A DNA stretch of 64,000 nt from Acidobacteriota bacterium. GTDB lineage: Bacteria; Acidobacteriota; UBA6911; RPQK01; JAJDTT01. How positions within the stretch are numbered: position 1 is the stretch's first letter; the number at the start of each line of letters is the position of its first letter. The translations under genes were made by a program, and so were the position numbers. Below are positions 3,315 through 64,000 of the stretch, piece by piece. The notes beneath the pieces were generated by a model, which saw only the letters and a program-made list of their open reading frames with translations, was not told the origin of the DNA and ran no database searches. Where the stretch lies: the NCBI GenBank assembly GCA_028874215.1, contig JAPPLF010000018.1, positions 1 to 64,000 of the forward strand, written 5' to 3'.

Positions 3315-6300
3315 TCAGAACAGCAGCCGAAAGCCGATCTGCATCTGGAAGGGTGGTCCCGGGATGTTCCCCGTCAGGTATTCGCCGTCTTCGCCCCGGG
3401 TCCGGGCGAAGTTGGGGTTCGACGGTCGTCCGTCAAGGCCACAGGACAAGTCGCGCGAACTGGCGCAATAGTTGGCGACGGTGGAGAAACCCTGGCGGAG
3501 CGTGACATTGTCGCGGTTGAAAAGGTTGAAGAATTCCAGCGAAACCACCGCTTGCCGGTCCGCGCCGGCCGAGAACCGCTTCTGCACCCTCAGGTTGATG
3601 TCGGCAACGGGCACGTCGCGGAACGCGTTTCTGGTGAACGGCACGCCGGGCGCGCTGTAGGGACGGTCGGCGCCGCCCCGGTCCTCGTTGGAATCGGTGC
3701 CCATTCGAGCGTCGAACGGCGCGCCTGAGAAGATGTACATTCCGGTCGAGATATCGACGTCTCCGGGCAGCATGACCACGCCCGTCACGTGGACCTGGTG
3801 CCGGCGGTCGAGTCTGCTGGGACCGTACTCCGAGGCCAGGTCGTATCCGTTCTCGTAGGACACTCCGCTTGCCGACCGTTCGTTGTCGTCGTTGGATTCG
3901 TTTTTGGACAACACGTAGTAGGCGCTGAACTGTCCCCAGGAGCGGCGGATCTCCGAGCGGACCGTCAGCGCGCGGTAAAGCGCCGACGCGGTCGACTCGC
4001 GGACCGTCACGCTGTCGAGTCCCGGCACCGGCCGCGCCGTTCCGCTCCGCAGGCCGAAGAATGGACGTTGCGCCGGATCGTCGCGCCTCACTGCCGGCAG
4101 CGGCACGTTGAGGTCCCGGTTGCGTTGCAGGTGAATCGTGTCGACGACGAGCAGGTCGGCGCCCAGCGACCAGCCGGGACTGATCTCGTGCTCGACGCCG
4201 GCGCCAAGCTGCCTCGCCATCGGGTTTCTGAAGTCCCGGTCCATCAGGGTGAGGCGGGCGCCGGCGAACGGGTTGTTCTCGATTCCGAGCGCGGTGGCGA
4301 TGGCCGACATCTGGTCCGGGGTGAGGGTCGGCAGGTTGTCGAGAGTCCGCTCGTTGAGGTCGATCCCGATCAGATTCATCTGCTCGTACAGGGTGTCATT
4401 CGGATTCCCCGGAGGGACGCGAAACGGCAGGGCCACCGTCACGTCACCCGGCGGCACGCGGAAGTTGTTCATCGGACCGGACAGGAGCAGCAACGGGGTC
4501 CGCGCGTAGTAGACGCCGGTGAACCGCCGAACCACAGTCTTCGCGCCGCCGGTGGGGTCCCACGCGAAGCCGGCCCGGGGACCAAACTGCTGACGGCTGC
4601 TCGGGATCGTCGACGGGTCGACGGTGCGGCCGATGGGGAACCTGACGCCGCCCAGTTGATCGAGCAGGGTCCGGTTGTCGGCGTCGGGGGCCGGATTGAG
4701 CTGGGCGTCCCAGCGAAGTCCGTAGTTGACCGTCAGTGTGGGCGCCACGCGCCACTCGTCCTGCACGAAGAGTCCGACCTCGTCGGTCGCGAACGAGTTT
4801 TTCAGGTTTCCGATCTGCTGAACGTAGATCAATGAGCGGGAGTCGAACCGGTTGGGGATGGCGCCGCCGACGCCGATGATGTCCAGTGTGGTCTCGACGT
4901 CCGAGCCGAAGACGAGATAGCCGCCGTTCTGGAAGAAGCCGAATATCTGGTCGATGAAGACGTGGTTGACGTCGAATCCTGCCTTCACCCCGTGCGAGCC
5001 GGCGAGCCACGTCACATTGCCGCCCGCCTGCGCCCGCCAGTCGTACTGCGTCGTGGGGCGGAAACTGCGGGTGCCGAATTCCCCGAGCGACAGATCGACG
5101 AGCGGCTTGAGGGCATTGGCCGAGCGCGGCCGGTCCTCCCGCGAATATTGCCCGCGCAGTTCGAAGAGGAGGTTGGATGACGGCGCGCCGGTGAACTGGC
5201 CGACCGCCGTCTGCGTCGAATCCTCCTCCGTGCCGTTGGTTTCGAGCGAGCGGTGGGTGGTCGGAACGATGACGCCCCCGACGCCGTCGGAATTGAGGGC
5301 CCGGTTCGTGCTGCCGTTGTAGCGGACGTTGAAGCGGTTTCCGCGCGCCAGGTCGAAGTCGAACCGGGCCAGCCAGGCTTTGGCGTCGTTGGTCACGTCG
5401 AAAGGTGTCTCGAGGCCTCGATAGTGTTCGTACCCTTCGCGGCTGGCCGCCGTGGGCGAGAAGCCGGAGAGCCGGGTGAAACGCACCTCGCGCCCCGCCT
5501 TGAACTCCTGCTGTTCGTAGGCGACGAAATAGAACGCCCGGTCTCGGACAAGCGGGCCGCCCAGGGAGCCGCCGAACTGGTGCTGCGTCGGCGCTGCGTC
5601 CTGGCCGAACGCGTTTTGCAACGCGAGTTGCTCGGGCCGCAGGAGGTAGAACGCCGACCCGTGGGTTGCGTTCGTGCCCGACTCGGTAATGGCGTTGACG
5701 AGCCCGCCGGTCGACCGGCCGAACTCGGGCGAGTAGCCGGCCTTGACCACCCGGAACTCGCGGATCGCTTCCTGGGGAATCGTAAACGTGAACTGCGAAC
5801 GTTCTCCGCCCCGGATGCCGCCGAAGAACGGCTGGTTGTAGTCGGCTCCGTCGATGCTGACATTGCCGTTGATGCCGCGTTGTCCCGCCAGCGAGATCTG
5901 TCCGCGCTGTGGCTCGACCTGAGCGGTCGGAGTCAGGGAGACGAAATCATGGAAGCGCCGGCCGTTGATGGGCAGGTTCGAGATGGCCTGGCGGTCGAGC
6001 GTCACGTCGGACGTGTCCGTCGTGGTTTCGACGGCGGAGGTCCTTGCGGTCACCGTGACATCCTCCGCGACACCGGCAGGAGCGAGGGTGAAACTGATGG
6101 TCCGGCGGGCGCCCACGGTGATCGTCACGTCGTCGAGACGCACGGCGCGGAATCCGGGTAGCTCAGCGCGGATGTCATACCGGCCGGGCGGCAACAGCAT
6201 GATGCTGTAGGACCCCATGGGGCCGGAGACGGCGGCGCGGGTCAGGCCGTTGTCCGGGTTGACGGCGGTCACGGTGGCGCCGGGCAGGACGCCGCCGGTC

Positions 6301-6524: not shown

Positions 6525-6947
6525 TTGCTGACACCAGATTGGACGCTGCCGGTTGCCGCGGCCATATTTTTGACCACTCTCTTCATTCTCAACCGGGTAC
6601 TCTTTCGCCCCCTTTTCGAGGTCCTGGCCGAACGGCAGGCCCGGACGACCCAGGTGAGCGGTCGAGTCCAGGAAATTCTGGATGAACATCAGATTCTCCA
6701 CGAAGAATACCAACAGAAGCTGGCAGAGGAGAGGCAGGCGGGATACAAGCTGGCGGAATCGGTTCGAGCCGAGGCGCTGAAAGAGGGAAACAACCGAGTT
6801 GCGCAAGCGCGCCAACGGGCAGAGACCATGCTGGCGAACGCGAGGAGTGAGATCGAAGCGGATCTGGACTCGGCCAAGCGGCATCTGAGTCGCGAAGCCG
6901 GGGAGACCGCGCGAATCCTGGCCGACAGGATTCTGGACCGGGCCTGA
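6525..6947 (+). CDS. atpF: ATP synthase F0 subunit b (first of two)
   Basis: About 140 residues from a TTG start. One N-terminal membrane helix (LPVAAAIFLTTLFILNRVLF, roughly residues 7-26) is followed by a long charged amphipathic helix rich in E, R, A and Q, the dimerising stator stalk. The TTG at 6525 is chosen because GGGAGTGGGAG lies just upstream and the protein then begins at the usual point before the membrane helix. The in-frame ATG at 6483 would add 14 residues, and a still earlier start at 6405 overlaps the TonB promoter side. It anchors F1 (through delta) to F0 in the inner membrane. It is the first gene of the F1F0 operon; a second b-type gene follows after about 195 bases. Confidence 0.85.
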   Translation: MLTPDWTLPVAAAIFLTTLFILNRVLFRPLFEVLAERQARTTQVSGRVQEILDEHQILHEEYQQKLAEERQAGYKLAESVRAEALKEGNNRVAQARQRAETMLANARSEIEADLDSAKRHLSREAGETARILADRILDRA

Positions 6948-8351: not shown

Positions 8352-9893
<1,542 letters not shown>

Positions 9894-10828: not shown

Positions 10829-12277
<1,449 letters not shown>

Positions 12278-44700: not shown

Positions 44701-44784
44701 GTAAAGTCGAAACCCATTGACCCAGGTTCGGACGTTGGAGCAATATTGCCGAGTCGTCCAAGTCAGTTCTCACGGAACAGCCAG

Positions 44785-44808
44785 ATGCTTATGGAGAAGG
44801 AAAAATGA
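44785..44808 (+). other. Mini-cistron overlapping the start of the first tandem oxidoreductase
   Basis: The frame MLMEKEK ends in TGA overlapping ATG 44805 (ATGA). The same arrangement, MLMEEE ending in TAG and overlapping GTG 46390, precedes the duplicate gene. The purine-rich Shine-Dalgarno of the main gene lies within it. It could provide termination-reinitiation, or be a by-product of the duplicated ribosome-binding site. Confidence 0.3.
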
Positions 44809-46280
44809 CGAATCAGTGGAAGCGCCGGCGTTTTCTCAGCACTACGGGCCGTGCAGCGGCGGGGTTGGTGATTCTCCCCAACAGCCGTTCGGTCTGGGGC
44901 TACCCGGCCAATGAGAAGCTCGACGTCGCCGTTATCGGCGCCGGCGGAATGGGAGGATGGAACCTCGTCCACATAGCGGGGGAGAACGTGGAGTTCCGGT
45001 CGGGCATGAGAGTCAAGCCGGATTCACAGCCGGAAATGACCGGGGAGAACATCGTAGCTCTCTGCGACACGGACGAGCGGTCGGTGGCCGAATTGACTCC
45101 AGGACGCCGGAATCCTCCGAGCCACGCCTTCGCCCGCTATGGACGAGCCAGGAAATTCAACGATTACCGGAGGATGCTCGACGAGTTGGATCGCCAGATC
45201 GATGCCGTGGTCGTGAGCACTCCGAACCACAACCACGCTCCGGCGAGTGTTGCGGCGATGCGGCGCGGGAAGCACGTCTACTGCGAGAAGCCGGGCGCCG
45301 ATTCGGTCTTCGAGGCTCGCATGATGGCCAAGGTGGCCGCCGAGCAGCAGGTGGCGACGCAATTGGGAACCCAGATGCACGCCTCGGACAACCACCGCCG
45401 CGTCGTCGAACTGATCCGCGCCGGAGCCATCGGCGCGGTGGAGGAGTGCCACATCTGGCTCCGCTCGGGACGCGGCGCGAGTGACCGCCCGGCCGAGACG
45501 CCACCCGTCCCCAAAGGGCTTCATTGGGATCTCTTCCTGGGGCCGGCGCCTTACCGTCCCTACCACCCCACCTATTCCCGCGGTTGCGGCGGCAACTGGC
45601 ATCGGTGGTGGGATTTCGGCTCCGGCAGCTTCGGCAACATGGGTTGCCACTACCTGACACCGGCCTTCCGCGCATTGGATCTCCGCTATCCGGTCTCGGT
45701 GGAGGCCCAGGGGCCGCCACCGCACCCAGAGACGGCACCCGGGCAGCTTCATGTCCGCTACCGGTTCCCGGCCCGCGGAGAGATGCCGCCGGTCACCCTG
45801 ACCTGGACACATGGAAGTCAGCCGCCGCCGGTGTTTGCGGAGAACGACTTCCCCAAATGGGCCTGGGGCGTTTTTGTGGGCACCGAGGGAATGCTGCTGG
45901 CAAGCTACGGGCAGCGGATGCTCTGGCCTGAGAAAAAGTTCGCACACTTCGAGCCGCCCAAACCGAGCATCCCGCCTTCCATCGGTGCGGAGATCGGCCT
46001 TCGCGCTCCATGGGTAGCCGCGTACAAGAACCACCCGGACTGGCGTCGGACGGCTGAAGTCGGCCATCGCGCCGAGTGGATCGCCGCCTGCAAAACCGGG
46101 AGCCCGACGGGCTGCAACTTCGGCGCTTCCGGCCCCATCTCGGAGGCGGTCATGCTGGGGAGCGTCGCCTATCGCACCGGCGCCAAACTCGACTGGGACG
46201 CGGACAACCTGCGGGTCGCCAACTCTCCGGAGGCCGACGCGCTGCTGCGAAAGAAATACCGTTCCGGTTGGACGTTGTGA
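44805..46280 (+). CDS. Gfo/Idh/MocA-family oxidoreductase, tandem copy 1
   Basis: 491 residues. An RRRFLSTTGRAAAGLVIL signal suggests Tat export. NAD(P)-binding VAVIGAGGMGGWNL, then VVVSTPNHNHAPASVAAM and the intact E-K-P catalytic motif in KHVYCEKPGA, followed by LGTQMHASDNHRR. The C-terminal half (GLHWDLFLGPAPYRPYHPTY, GGNWHRWWDFGSGSFG) is the bacterial Gfo/Idh/MocA C-terminal domain common in Planctomycetota and Acidobacteriota. It probably oxidises a sugar or glycoside, perhaps to a 3-keto form for a DUF1080 enzyme. Followed after 109 bases by a near-identical gene. Confidence 0.87.
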   Translation: MTNQWKRRRFLSTTGRAAAGLVILPNSRSVWGYPANEKLDVAVIGAGGMGGWNLVHIAGENVEFRSGMRVKPDSQPEMTGENIVALCDTDERSVAELTPGRRNPPSHAFARYGRARKFNDYRRMLDELDRQIDAVVVSTPNHNHAPASVAAMRRGKHVYCEKPGADSVFEARMMAKVAAEQQVATQLGTQMHASDNHRRVVELIRAGAIGAVEECHIWLRSGRGASDRPAETPPVPKGLHWDLFLGPAPYRPYHPTYSRGCGGNWHRWWDFGSGSFGNMGCHYLTPAFRALDLRYPVSVEAQGPPPHPETAPGQLHVRYRFPARGEMPPVTLTWTHGSQPPPVFAENDFPKWAWGVFVGTEGMLLASYGQRMLWPEKKFAHFEPPKPSIPPSIGAEIGLRAPWVAAYKNHPDWRRTAEVGHRAEWIAACKTGSPTGCNFGASGPISEAVMLGSVAYRTGAKLDWDADNLRVANSPEADALLRKKYRSGWTL

Positions 46281-46389
46281 ACTCAAAGGGAAACCGGAAG
46301 GGGACTGCCTGTTTCGAACTCCGGGGAGAATGTAATCTCGAGATTCGGGTCCGCATTCGGAACGGCCGGATGCTGATGGAGGAGGAATA

Positions 46390-47865
46390 GTGGCCAACCA
46401 GTTGAAACGGCGACGTTTTCTCGGCACTGCGGGCCGCGCTGCGGCGGGCTTCGTGATTCTTCGCGACAGCCGTTCGGTGTGGGGCTACCCTGCCAACGAA
46501 AAGCTCAATATCGCCGCTGTCGGCGTCGGTGGCATGGGAGCGTGGAACCTCGCCCACATGGCGGGGGAGAACGTGGAGTATGTGACGGGCATGAGAATCA
46601 AGCCGGCTTCGCAGCCGGAGATGACCGGGGAGAACATCATAGCTCTCTGCGACACTGACGAACGGTCGGCGGCAGCTTCGGCTCCGAGGCGCCGGAATCC
46701 TCCCGGGCACGCCCTCGCCCGCTATGGACAAGCTAAGAAGTTCCACGATTACCGGCAGATGCTCGACGAGCTGGACCGCCAGATCGACGCCGTGGTGGTG
46801 AGCACGCCGGACCACACCCATGCTCCGGCCAGTGTTGCGGCCATGCGGCGCGGCAAGCACGTCTACTGCGAGAAGCCGGGAGCCATTTCGGTCTTCGAGG
46901 CCCGTATGCTGGCCAAGGTGGCCGCCGAGCAGCAGGTGGCGACCCAGTTGGGAACCCAGATCCACGCTTCGGGCAACTACCGCCGCATCGTCGAATTGGT
47001 CCGCGGCGGAGCCATCGGTACGGTGAAGAGTTGCCATATTTGGGTCCGCTCGGGACGCAAGCCGATTGACCGTCCGACCGAGACTCCACCTGTCCCCGAA
47101 GGGCTTCATTGGGACCTTTTCCTGGGGGCGGCTCCTTACCGCGCCTATCACCCCACCTATTCCCGGGGTTGCGGCGGCAACTGGCAGCGCTGGTGGGATT
47201 TCGGCACCGGCAGTCTGGGCAACGCCGCCACCCATTTCTTCAACTTGGCCTTCTGGGCTCTGAAGCTCCGCTATCCCGACTCGGTGGAGGCGGAGGGTCC
47301 GCCACCGCATCCTGAGACGGTTCCCGAGCGGCTCCATGTCCGTTACCGGTTCCCCGCGCGCGGCGAGATGCCGCCGGTGACCCTGACCTGGACCCAAGGC
47401 AGTCAGCCGCCGCCGGTTTTTGCGGAAAACGACTTCCCCGACTGGCCCTGGGGCGTCTTCGTGGGGACCGAAGGAATGCTGCTGGTGAACTACCCGCAGC
47501 GGATGCTCTGGCCTGCGGAGAAGTTCAAGGGCTTCGTGCCGCCCAAGCCGAGCATTCCCCCGTCCATCGGCGCGGAAATCGGCCGCCGCCCGGAGTGGAT
47601 GGCCGCCTACAAGCACCACGAATCGTGGCGGCGAACGTCTGAAGTCGGCCATCGCGCCGAGTGGATTGCCGCTTGCAAATCCGGGAGTCCGACGAGCTGC
47701 CATTTCGGCTATTCCGGTCCCATCTCGGAGGCGGTCAACCTGGGCGCCGTTGCCTACCGCACCGGAGCCAAACTCGACTGGGACGCGGACAACCTGCGGG
47801 TCGCCAATTCTCCCGAGGCCAATGCGCTGCTGCGCAAGGAATACCGTTCCGGTTGGAAGTTGTGA
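46390..47865 (+). CDS. Gfo/Idh/MocA-family oxidoreductase, tandem copy 2
   Basis: 491 residues, the same length as copy 1 and alignable end to end without gaps by eye. It starts with GTG; GGAGGAATA lies directly upstream. Tat-like RRRFLGTAGRAAAGFVIL, IAAVGVGGMGAWNL, KHVYCEKPGA, GLHWDLFLGAAPYRAYHPTY. Differences cluster in surface-looking positions and in the substrate side (NHNHAP to DHTHAP; MGCHYLTPAFRALDLRY to AATHFFNLAFWALKLRY), so the copies may handle different sugars. A clear tandem duplication that includes about 30 bases of leader. Confidence 0.87.
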   Translation: MANQLKRRRFLGTAGRAAAGFVILRDSRSVWGYPANEKLNIAAVGVGGMGAWNLAHMAGENVEYVTGMRIKPASQPEMTGENIIALCDTDERSAAASAPRRRNPPGHALARYGQAKKFHDYRQMLDELDRQIDAVVVSTPDHTHAPASVAAMRRGKHVYCEKPGAISVFEARMLAKVAAEQQVATQLGTQIHASGNYRRIVELVRGGAIGTVKSCHIWVRSGRKPIDRPTETPPVPEGLHWDLFLGAAPYRAYHPTYSRGCGGNWQRWWDFGTGSLGNAATHFFNLAFWALKLRYPDSVEAEGPPPHPETVPERLHVRYRFPARGEMPPVTLTWTQGSQPPPVFAENDFPDWPWGVFVGTEGMLLVNYPQRMLWPAEKFKGFVPPKPSIPPSIGAEIGRRPEWMAAYKHHESWRRTSEVGHRAEWIAACKSGSPTSCHFGYSGPISEAVNLGAVAYRTGAKLDWDADNLRVANSPEANALLRKEYRSGWKL

Positions 47866-48004
47866 TCTCGACGGAATGCCTGCTGCCCGCTCCATGACGG
47901 ATGACCTCGGTTTTCCGGATCCTGGATTCGGCCGGGCCGGCCATCCACGGAAAGCCGTTCCGGGACCGGGGATCAAACCCAGAGGATGGGGAAGCGAACA
48001 AAGG

Positions 48005-59121: not shown

Positions 59122-59210
59122 TGGTCTAGTCGATCCTTCCCTTCCGGTCCTCCAGGACGTTGCCGGACGCTCTCTGGACGCAGTCGCCGTTAGTATGGAG
59201 AATATTGGCC

Positions 59211-60800
59211 ATGCAGGTCACCCTCCGAGCGATTTTCACTCTTTTTCTGGCCGTTTCGGTGCGTGGTGCCGGACACGTCGAAGTGCGTGACGTGGGCACC
59301 GACCTCCAGCTTTTCGTGGACGACTGGCTGGTGGATTCACTGGACGGCGTTTACCGGCAGTTGCACCGTCCCCGAGCGGCGGAGGTGGCCATCCAACTGG
59401 ATCGTCCCTGGGAGGGACTCTATCTTTACGACCCCAGCGTCATGAAGGACGGCTCCCGGTACCGGATGTGGTACCGGGGGGGCGGCCCCTCGCGGCCCCA
59501 CCTCTGGGCCTATGCCGAGAGCGCCGACGGCATTCACTGGGTCAAGCCGGAACTGAACCTCATCGAGTTCAAGGGCTCCAGGAAAAACAACCTGGTCTGG
59601 CCGATTCCGGGAGGCATCTGCTCCACTCTCGCCATCTTCAAGGACCCCAACCCGGAGACTCCGCCGGATGAGCGCTACAAGTCCATCTGCACCGGAAAGG
59701 AGCCGGGCGCCGGCCACGACCGGCCCGTCATTTACGGCCTGGTCTCTCCCGACGGGCTTCGATGGCGCATGATCCGGGAGCAGAAGCTGCTGCAGCCGCC
59801 TTGGGAGGACGGGGCGCTGGACTCGCACAACATCGGCCTCTGGGACCCGGGACGCGGGCACTACGCCATCTATGCCCGGGGCTGGTATCGGCGGGGAAGC
59901 GTGCCTTACGGCTCCAAGACCGTCCGCAAGGAGCTCTACCACGTCACGGCCCAATTGCCCTCGGGGACAGAGTTCACGGTGCCCAGGATCCGGGACATCC
60001 GGCGCTTCGTCTCCAAGGACTTCCTGAACTGGTCGGAACCCGAATATCTCCAGTACCGGAGCACCCCCGAGGAGCATCTCTACAAGAACGCCGCCACTCC
60101 GTACTATCGAAGACCCGACCTGATGGTCATGTTTCCCAAGCGGTTCATGCCCGAGCGGGTTTTCGACCCGGATTGGCCCCATGTCTACATGGAGCCCTGG
60201 GCAAACGCGCCCGATTGTTCGAGCATGGAGGTGCCGGGCATCACCTGGATCTACGGTTGCGCCGGACTCTCGGACATCGTCTTCATGTTCAGCCGGGACG
60301 GCATCACGTTCACCTATTTTCGCGAGGCCTTCATCCGTCCCGGGCGGGACATCCGGAACTGGCACGGCAGGGCCATCGAAGTGGGACCCACGCTGGTTCC
60401 CACCGGCGACGGGGAGATGTCCCTTTACTTCGTGGAGAATTACGGAACCCAGACGGTCAAGATCCGGCGCGGCGTGCTGCGGGAAGACGGGTTCGTCTCG
60501 CTGCAGGGCAACTTCGAGGGCGGATCGGTCCGGACCCGGCCCTTCCGCTTCTCAGGCTCCCGGCTCACGCTGAACTACTCCACCTCGGCCGCGGGGAGCC
60601 TCCGGGTCGAGATCCAGGACCAGCGGGGAGATCCCCTGGAGGGCTACGGCCTGGACGATTGCAAGTTGATCTTCGGCGACGAGCTGCAGCGGACCGTCAA
60701 GTGGAAGGGCGGCGCCGACCTGTCTACCCTGGCCGGTCAGACCGTGCGAATGAAGATCGAAATCCGTGACGGCGACCTCTTCTCGCTGCAGTTTCATTAG
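59211..60800 (+). CDS. Secreted propeller/beta-sandwich protein, paralogue D
   Basis: About 529 residues. Signal peptide LRAIFTLFLAVSVRGAG. Then LQLFVDDWLVDSLDGVYRQL, the blade motif GSRYRMWYRGGGPSRPHLWA, AESADGIHWVKPELNL, and a C-terminal module with TSAAGSLRVEIQDQRGDPL, WKGGADLSTLAGQTVRMKI and RDGDLFSLQFH. The longest member of the four-gene family, with extra sequence in the middle (RGWYRRGSVPYGSKTV region). ATG 59211 has GGAGA about 10 bases upstream. Divergent from the unknown secreted protein at 57235. Confidence 0.7.
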   Translation: MQVTLRAIFTLFLAVSVRGAGHVEVRDVGTDLQLFVDDWLVDSLDGVYRQLHRPRAAEVAIQLDRPWEGLYLYDPSVMKDGSRYRMWYRGGGPSRPHLWAYAESADGIHWVKPELNLIEFKGSRKNNLVWPIPGGICSTLAIFKDPNPETPPDERYKSICTGKEPGAGHDRPVIYGLVSPDGLRWRMIREQKLLQPPWEDGALDSHNIGLWDPGRGHYAIYARGWYRRGSVPYGSKTVRKELYHVTAQLPSGTEFTVPRIRDIRRFVSKDFLNWSEPEYLQYRSTPEEHLYKNAATPYYRRPDLMVMFPKRFMPERVFDPDWPHVYMEPWANAPDCSSMEVPGITWIYGCAGLSDIVFMFSRDGITFTYFREAFIRPGRDIRNWHGRAIEVGPTLVPTGDGEMSLYFVENYGTQTVKIRRGVLREDGFVSLQGNFEGGSVRTRPFRFSGSRLTLNYSTSAAGSLRVEIQDQRGDPLEGYGLDDCKLIFGDELQRTVKWKGGADLSTLAGQTVRMKIEIRDGDLFSLQFH

Positions 60801-60853
60801 GAGCTCCCCCACCGGCCCGGTCCGGCGGATGTCCGGTAGAAAAAGGAATGGGG

Positions 60854-60902
60854 CGGCGGTTTCCTAACCGCCGAACAGACAAGCGGCGATTTCCAATCGC
60901 CG
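60854..60902. repeat. Dispersed dyad repeat, two tandem units
   Basis: CGGCGGTT/AACCGCCG (60854-60873) and CGGCGATT/AATCGCCG (60884-60902) are perfect 8-base inverted repeats spaced about 30 bases apart. The second is 18/19 identical to the reverse complement of 51771-51789. They lie in the 289-base gap before the DprA/RecQ operon, which holds no gene. They could form a stem-loop bounding the unit. Confidence 0.65.
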
Positions 60903-61089
60903 AACTCCTGACTGACAAACTTGGCGACGAAGACCGAGCGATTGGAATTCGTTTCTTATTTCTCAGAACCGGGTTGCTTCGCGCAATTCACCTGAGGCAT
61001 TCCAGCGAGACTTGAGGCGATCTTCAGACTCGTTCTTGGAGACTCCGTATCGAGCCGAAATTCGTGACGGCGCCGGCCTTGGTCGGGAG

Positions 61090-62646
61090 TCACTCCTCAA
61101 ACAGGCGTTCCGTCGAACGAATATACGTCACGGGATTCGTGTGTTTATCCAGGACCTCCTCCCCAGCCAATCGATCCAGCCATTGCCGGGCCTGATATTC
61201 CCTGACACCGAGTTCCACAGATACCTGGCGTGCTGTCTTGGGTGTGACTACGACACGAGGAATCAGACGCCGCACGACATCGTGCAATTCTTGCGCGTAG
61301 TCTTCAATCACATCGGATGGTCGATAGGATTCGGTCCCGCTGGTTTGTATGTGTTCCATGCTCTCCCCGGATCGTCCTTCCTGAACTAGGCCGTGTGTCG
61401 AATGAACGTACTTCACGGGCCGGGTGCTTTTCTCCAATTCACCATCTGCAACCAGATTTTGCAGCCAATTCTCGGCTTGAGGTTTGGTGACGTTCAAGAC
61501 GTTGGAAACCTCCTCGGGCGTCTTGGGATGTGCAAGGAAACGTCGCATCAGAGAACGTATGGACTGAAGGAGTTCCTTGGAAGCGCTTCCGGATTGGCGG
61601 GGTTCGTCGCTGGTTGACGGTGCCGGTTCGGAAACCAAGTGAGGATCTGTCGCCAGCCGGGTAGAAGAAAGCTTGAGTTGGTAAGGGCGGACCATCGTAT
61701 CCGTACTGGCGAGAACCTTTTTGAATCCGTCCGGATCCGTCGGATTCGGCCAAGATTTCGCCCCTCGGCGCTGCAACTCTTTCAGCGCGTCATGTGCATC
61801 CCCACGTGAGAGCACGTGAACTGGCGTGGAGTATTTCCTCAGCTGCTCTACGGCCCCCGCCCAGGTTCCTCCCTTGTTGACGACTGCATGGGCCACCAAG
61901 GCGGCATTGGCCAAGGCGTAGATCACCTTGTTTCTCTGCATCGCGTGGCCCACATTGAACCTTGCTCCCGGATCGTACGGAGAGACCAGCACCAGCCGTT
62001 CCTCCAAGACCAGATTTCGATGCATTCGGTTCATGGACGTTCTCTCAAGATTCCCCGCCAACACCCCCACGGCTGATCCGCCAGCCTTCAAGACGCCATT
62101 CATTGCGGCCTGATCCACACCTCGCGCCGCTCCCGACACGATGGTGCAGCCTGCTCTGGCCGCAAGGGCGGAGACGCCTTCGACGTAGTGAAGAGTCGGC
62201 TCGTCGACATTGCGCGATCCAACGATGGCCAAGGCACTGCGGGCTCCGATGATCTCTCTGTTCCCACATCCGTAAAGCACAGCCGGCGCGTCTTTACGCA
62301 ATCGCTCTTTGAGCATCCGCGGGTATTCGCCGTCGGCACGGCTAACCACCCAGATCGCTCTTGCCTGCCATCGTCGCACGGCCTGGGCCAGAGCGAATCC
62401 CCGGCCCACTAGCGCCGTGAGGCGGGACGTGTCCGCCACGGAGCTACAGTTGTCCAAGAGAGAGTCCGAGTGGCTCTTCAACAGGTCGGCCGGTTGGACT
62501 CCAAGAGCATAGAGGCGACCAGCAAGCTTGTTGTATTCACCCGCTGTGAGGGGTTTCACTCCACCCCTGACCCCACCTGCGATGAGGGGTGCAGTCAATA
62601 GTAGGATCGCCTTAGTGTTCAAGGAAAGATCCATATCCCCGTTCAT
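61090..62646 (-). CDS. DprA-like protein with two tandem winged-helix-like repeats
   Basis: 518 residues, longer than standard DprA (about 290-370). Rossmann-fold core with [16 protein letters not shown] (residues 139-154), [19 protein letters not shown] and the late motif [13 protein letters not shown]; standard DprA binds ssDNA and loads RecA. The C-terminal part has two copies of a winged-helix-like unit: residues about 375-417 ([20 protein letters not shown] ... VKYVHST) and 470-512 ([20 protein letters not shown] ... VTYIRST). GGAGGAACACA precedes ATG 62646, which overlaps the RecQ stop by four bases. The coding region is less GC-rich than the centre of the window. Second gene of the operon. 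Confidence 0.8.
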
Positions 62647-64000
62647 TGTGTTCCTCCGGCATCGGCGAGCGCGAGCGGCCACACAGCGTCACATCCGCGG
62701 CGGCGAAGTTCCCAGGTGAGAACTGTGAAGGTCCATCGGGAGTCCACGATATCGTCCATCAATAGCACGGGGCTCTTGAGAATGGCGGTTTTGTCGACTG
62801 TCACCGATCCAACGATGTTTCGCGCTTGCTTGTCGCTGTTTTCCATCGTTTTCTGTTCCGGACGGTCCTCTTTTTTTACCATCGTTACGCGGAATGGAAG
62901 CCCGAGCGCTGCTGCGAGACGCCGGGCGAAGTCAGGAACAAGGTCCGGATGGCAGTAGGACGGAACGGCGGTGACCCATTCCGGGAACGGATCGGGCCGC
63001 CACTGTCGCACCAGAGAAACACAAGCGTCTACGAGAGAGTCGGAGAATCTGTTGTCTACGTACTTTCCTTGCCGTACGAGATCCCCCCAGCCGTCGTCTG
63101 CCCAGGCACTGAGCGCTCTGCCGCGTTCTGCCTGATGATCGCGATCGATCCGCTTGCCTGGTGGCCAAGTCCGCCGTGGTCTAATGATCAGGCTATTGCG
63201 GCGCAAAAATGCAACGGCCTCACGAACTCGTTGCGGTGCTACTGTCGTGGATAAATTTGGGAGGTTTGGCGAAAAAACATTCTTGGACTCGCCGTCCAGG
63301 GACCGGATCAGGAACTCCATATGGCCGGAGGGCAGTCCGATGTACTCCTGCATTTGTGCTAGCTCAGTATGCCGCAGGTCAGTGAGCCGTCGCGCTCGAT
63401 TCCAGAACTCTTGACTCAAGGTTGCAGCCGTGAGCTGCCACTTCGCTCCCAGCTTGGCGATCGGCGCCGGCGACTCCAGGGAAAGTAGTTGAAAGGTTTT
63501 TTCTATTCGACGGTAACTGACGTTAACCGCCATTTGAATCTCGCGGAACGAAAGGCCATCGGGAGCATCTTCCAGTGCCGAGACCACCGCGTCGACCTCA
63601 TTTTCGGTCGGGAAAGCACTTCTGATGAAATAGTCTGCGATCTCCGTATCCTCGTGACCGCTCAGGAGCACCCCGTATGCCGCTCTGAGTGCCCGCCCCG
63701 CCCGTCCGACCTGTTGGTAGTAGGCCACGACCGAGCCAGGGGCTTGGTAGTGAATTACAAATGCCAGATCCGGTTTATCGAATCCCATCCCTAGAGCCGT
63801 TGTTGCAACCAGCGCCTTGAGTTCGTTGTCGAGCAAGGCTTGCTCCAGTTCCGGTCGGCCCGCACCGGATCTGCTCGTGTATGCGGCCACGTTGAGACCG
63901 CGTGACCGGAGCCAGGAGGCCACGAGTTCGGCGTCGCGAACCGTCAGCGTATAGACAATTCCGCTGCCGGAGAGCGACCGCAACTGATCGGCCAGCCAGG
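62643..64000 (-). CDS. RecQ-family helicase fused to a ComF-like phosphoribosyltransferase domain (partial)
   Basis: The 5' part lies beyond the window; the frame is open through base 64000. The visible residues begin in helicase domain 2 ([20 protein letters not shown]), with motifs V and VI as [20 protein letters not shown] and [15 protein letters not shown] winged-helix-like segment follows, but the four-cysteine zinc site of standard RecQ was not seen. The C terminus is a phosphoribosyltransferase-like domain: [20 protein letters not shown], then the PRPP-loop [13 protein letters not shown], and [15 protein letters not shown], resembling ComFC. Its stop overlaps the DprA start (ATGA). It is a helicase that would unwind DNA and couple to DprA; the PRTase ligand is unknown. 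Confidence 0.82.

Follow-up and report, generated by a model that had tools for sequence, protein, structure and literature searches.

The PsyrTA pair of Pseudomonas syringae was reportedly described by Sberro in 2013. In the related ShosTA and P2 DprA-PRTase systems, no RecQ helicase is known to be fused to the phosphoribosyltransferase (PRTase). Like PsyrTA, these two systems combine a DprA-like antitoxin with a PRTase effector (PMC9122126). In E. coli, RqlHI shows PRTase-dependent genotoxicity, and RqlI binds RqlH and restrains it (PMC4670107). In all cases rqlH precedes rqlI, RqlH has as its standard architecture a helicase fused to a PRTase, and E. coli RqlH lost most of its toxicity through the exchanges DIVD663EVME or D663A (PMC4670107). 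ComFA/ComFC/DprA likewise bring a helicase, a PRTase and a DprA function together in one pathway, but there the genes are separate and the helicase belongs to another family.

We analyzed a window of 64,000 nucleotides (C18:1-64000) from a draft genome of 5.7 Mb in 113 contigs and read the sequence past the window end to C18:79000 (15 kb beyond 64000). We conclude that a gene pair at the window end is very probably a PsyrTA (RqlHI) toxin-antitoxin operon, which was acquired as accessory DNA and in which PsyrA restrains a PRTase toxin.

The gene pair and its protein domains

Both genes are located on the minus strand. The psyrT gene (rqlH-like) occupies positions 62643 to 64000 in the window, corresponding to the C-terminal 451 aa, and continues to C18:64694. 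Extension of the sequence past 64000 recovered the full N terminus, and the complete open reading frame (C18:62643-64694; L002:2144-4195) has a GTG start and encodes 683 aa. The psyrA gene (rqlI-like; 61090 to 62646) encodes a predicted DprA/SLOG Rossmann antitoxin of 518 aa with two C-terminal winged helices. The psyrT stop and the psyrA start overlap in an ATGA at 62643 to 62646 on the minus strand (...GGAGGAACACAATGAACGGG...), the 4-base overlap that an earlier note on this DNA had reported, and translational coupling of the two genes is likely. The overlap places the psyrA start at 62646; the GTG at 62682, given as the start in the list of open reading frames, makes the gene too long. Approximately 60 bases upstream of psyrT, outside the window, we found the 22-base palindrome GACCTCGATCCGATTCGAGGTC (C18:64754-64775), a possible operator.

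The PADLOC PsyrT profile matched the window-truncated helicase protein with 513 bits, and TIGR00614 (RecQ) matched the helicase core with 227.9 bits, above its cut-off. In the AF2 model of PsyrT (mean pLDDT 91.2), residues 1-481 were matched by RecQ structures with Z scores of 34-41. The ATPase motifs are intact, including Walker A K51 and DEAH D150, which correspond to the helicase residues K49 and D148 of E. coli RqlH. Since the structure search with the whole model returned the RecQ part only, the PRTase domain (about residues 515-680) was examined by sequence profile instead. A family profile of the C-terminal 179 residues retrieved PRPP synthetases and PRTases from the PDB (best E 5e-6), and Pfam Pribosyltran was matched by 19 of 21 family members; the window PsyrT alone gave a weak match (E 0.08). 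These profile matches support a PRTase fold after the RecQ helicase.

The PRPP-binding loop, DDIVDSRWT, was located by its motif at residues 647-655 (62730 to 62756, minus strand) and is near-universal in the family. Among 68 relatives, D647 is invariant, and D648, S652, W654 and T655 are conserved in at least 90%. The DIVD in this loop is identical to the motif mutated in RqlH, and the locus further shares with RqlHI of E. coli F11 the RecQ-like helicase-PRTase toxin and the DprA-like partner (PMC4670107). About 8 of 74 relatives have another residue in place of the last Asp of DIVD, showing that this Asp is not strictly required family-wide.

The psyrA product scored 420.2 bits with the PADLOC PsyrA profile and 124 bits with Pfam DNA_processg_A. 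With TIGR00732 (dprA), it reached 87.5 bits, under the cut-off of 191.15. Foldseek analysis of its AF2 model (mean pLDDT 83.5) revealed similarity to DprA (3uqz, E 5.5e-15) and ShosA (8zva, E 6e-14). The ShosA profile gave only 94.8 bits, far below the PsyrA score, and an identity as ShosTA was rejected on this basis. AF2 models both winged helices (tandem wHTH) at residues of about 353-415 and 443-510, and among 44 PsyrA proteins, two clear copies were found in this one only.

In summary, the locus shares with PsyrTA of P. syringae the domain order, the gene order with its overlap, the PRPP loop, the DprA-like partner and high profile scores, but differs from it by the extra winged helix and by belonging to a branch without the four zinc cysteines. 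Furthermore, 80 relatives were fetched, and in nearly all whose sequence extends far enough, a PsyrA partner follows immediately downstream; thus, neither the fusion nor the gene pair is due to chance. Profiles, structures and motifs bear out the earlier description of a RecQ-type helicase fused to a PRTase and followed by a DprA-like gene. Of the ComF-like character ascribed to the domain, the PRTase-like part stands by family profile and Pfam, while a closest kinship to ComF is conjectural.

Zinc cysteines and spread of PsyrT

The four RecQ zinc cysteines and five further residues are missing in PsyrT and its branch. The tetracysteine zinc domain is reportedly present in RqlH of Mycobacterium smegmatis, and an E. 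coli plasmid relative retains CL..CGKCENC; both are absent from this PsyrT. The zinc-less branch comprises 23 of 68 sequences (22 besides this PsyrT) from about 14 phyla, with a split support of 100, and in the other 45 sequences the cysteines are present with few single losses. Judged by sequence, this branch has lost all four RecQ zinc cysteines. Since the PADLOC profile does not demand the tetracysteine site, we consider its absence a variant. The branch also includes a helicase-PRTase relative (L118:6001-8124) with a canonical DDLVYTGAT loop and no zinc cysteines. No PsyrA was detected in the 6 kb downstream of this gene, and because it forms a long branch and has the canonical TGAT PRPP loop, its placement in the tree is unsure.

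The closest relatives of PsyrT, which are 66-68% identical, belong to Bipolaricaulota, Nitrospirota, Pseudomonadota, Acidobacteriota and others, and include a copy on Sinorhizobium pSymB (66%). One genome of the same order harbors a relative with 49% identity. This patchy distribution points to horizontal spread of psyrTA. Phage carriage was rejected: a search of 50,697 records of phages with a threshold of E 1e-60 gave no PsyrT match.

The insertion and other psyrTA loci

The psyrTA genes are part of a 4.6-kb insertion (C18:60803-65407), the left part of which (60803 to 64000) lies in the window. It adjoins a resident chromosomal gene (59160 to 60802, plus strand; 546 aa), which is 90-96% identical in three congeners and whose product had no Pfam or NCBIfam match. 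Self-BLAST and alignment revealed a left direct repeat of 599 bp (60204 to 60802, plus strand) with 97.5% identity to the right copy, which is located outside the window (C18:64818-65407; L002:4319-4908). Both repeats, approximately 0.6 kb long, reproduce the resident gene's 3'-terminal part and differ by 15 substitutions in 590 positions plus 9 gap columns. In the congeners G001 and G002, the resident gene is directly continued by the sequence that, in this genome, lies beyond the right repeat, revealing an empty site. No recombinase gene was visible in the insert, and a single crossover with a circle bearing the same 3' gene end would yield the observed structure.

The GC content is 57-61% inside the insert versus 63-66% across most of the region beyond, and intergenic dyad repeats (60853-60901 and 60937-60952, within 60853 to 60952) are located at the left insertion end, downstream of psyrA. 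The earlier note had pointed out the dyad repeats and a GC content lower than in the centre, and similar dyads are also present in the congener G003. The insertion is followed by genes for a uracil-DNA-glycosylase-like protein and an LTXXQ protein. Tandem 0.3-kb copies with 84% identity (L002:6238-6539 and 6565-6866) were observed within an LTXXQ/metal-resistance-like gene. In the window, two neighboring 1.5-kb stretches (44773-46284 and 46358-47869), also 84% identical, represent a tandem gene duplication.

Full-length PsyrT is encoded in this genome only among four genus members, and other RecQ-like matches cover the helicase part only. Thus, psyrTA is accessory and not core in the genus. 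G003 has the left junction, but psyrT is gone except for a tail of ~64 bp; psyrA remains as two pieces with 94-96% identity, which precede the terminal ~30 bp of the right repeat. The left-repeat copy is 98.0% identical to that of G003 and about 90% identical to the other congeners. Based on the shared junction and the psyrA and repeat remnants, the insertion most likely arose before this genome and G003 diverged, and G003 most likely lost the toxin gene but kept pieces of the antitoxin gene. Misassembly is a highly improbable explanation of the insert and its repeats: this draft genome could in principle have been misassembled at repeats, but the repeat copies differ from each other, and the independent G003 assembly shares the junction, the psyrA pieces and the repeat end.

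Other psyrTA loci adjoin Schlafen, type I restriction-modification (R-M), PIN toxin and Fic genes, and on an E. coli plasmid psyrTA sits between hsdS and hsdR. In an uncontrolled tally of 96 neighboring proteins, matches to R-M, PIN, Fic, Schlafen, HamA and BrxL were scattered, and we read no enrichment into them. Of 49 other loci, 3 have psyrTA closely flanked by direct repeats on both sides, versus 0.22 expected by random placement, albeit in a small sample. In the type I R-M locus L041, copies of an hsdR-like 5' end, recognized by translation (5926-5984, 9415-9468 and 11482-11540), separate stacked modules, namely psyrTA and then an IrrE/PIN pair. In L046, from a Chlorobiaceae MAG, a duplicated recC 5' end (2246-2391 and 9387-9532) brackets a defence island with psyrTA; a 146-bp copy is located 3.6 kb upstream, and an intact recC follows psyrA. 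The duplicated edge is thus the 3' end of the resident gene in our locus, the hsdR-like 5' end in L041 and the recC 5' end in L046.

We also considered integron cassettes, since attC-like repeats were seen beside psyrTA in L041, L075 and L088, and rejected them. The supposed attC corresponds by translation to the hsdR-like 5' end in L041, by eye to a promoter-like stretch in L088, and to a 203-bp repeat in L075, and the folds of these repeats are weak. As a tentative and rather improbable generalization, PsyrTA could be a homology-borne cassette: recombination at one end of a gene already in place would duplicate this gene edge, require no recombinase of its own, and allow stacking with defence modules.

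Proposed function and rival readings

By analogy to RqlHI of E. coli, for which neutralization of the toxicity by the partner was demonstrated (PMC4670107), psyrTA most likely encodes a DNA-damaging toxin restrained by a DprA-like protein. PsyrT is a RecQ-family helicase whose C-terminal PRTase would be the effector, and PsyrA, probably made by coupled translation, would bind PsyrT and keep the PRTase silent. The complex may watch single-stranded or unwound DNA and could be disturbed by phage or plasmid replication or by loss of PsyrA. The freed PRTase would then act on a nucleotide or on DNA, leading to genotoxic stress and growth arrest. In such a scheme, psyrTA could plausibly serve as a phage or plasmid alarm. 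In P2 phages, the DprA-PRTase pair confers protection from T7 and lambda, which supports the defence reading (PMC9122126). However, this reading is weakened by the result that PsyrTA in its native host E. coli NILS69 conferred no detectable phage protection (PMC12409345). The mobile, possibly anti-phage alternative of the earlier note holds; in this scheme, we infer the DNA trigger, the PRTase substrate and the defence role.

The same negative phage test (PMC12409345), together with the RecQ core with its intact ATPase motifs and a beneficial DNA function proposed by the RqlHI authors (PMC4670107), would also suit a DNA-repair or replication-stress module, in which the pair performs a helpful DNA reaction and toxicity is a by-product of partner loss. 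We consider this unlikely, though worth keeping in mind, given the patchy accessory distribution, the mobile context and the loss of the toxin gene in G003. We give almost no credence to the competence-like operon that the earlier note had suggested, in which the helicase-PRTase and DprA would process ssDNA taken up during natural transformation. The domain types are indeed those of ComFA, ComFC and DprA, and the RqlHI authors raised the same analogy (PMC4670107). But a canonical dprA (C73; 254.9 bits, above the cut-off of 191.15) and ComEC (C93) are encoded elsewhere in the genome. ComEC is present in 4/4 genus members, and so are dprA matches, which are above the cut-off in three and split in two in G002. 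In addition, psyrTA is missing from two congeners, and the best family match is PsyrTA. Nor does the helicase play the part of ComFA, as had been supposed; its fusion to a PRTase is standard for RqlH (PMC4670107). No competence genes were found in the examined part of the 15 kb past 64000; with a pair that is not core, no adjoining competence operon and a real PRTase domain, the observations that the earlier note had named as contrary to its own reading did not emerge.

Read as a toxin-antitoxin pair, the locus is no longer a guessed competence operon but belongs to a named family with testable residues. The PsyrTA/RqlHI family is already known; new are the zinc-less PsyrT branch and the second winged helix of PsyrA. 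The occurrence of a zinc-less RecQ branch across many phyla is useful for asking about the role of the zinc domain in the toxin. The empty, intact and decayed sites of the congeners provide a natural record of gain and toxin loss, and the gene-edge duplications at both flanks hint at a way in which small modules could travel without an integrase.
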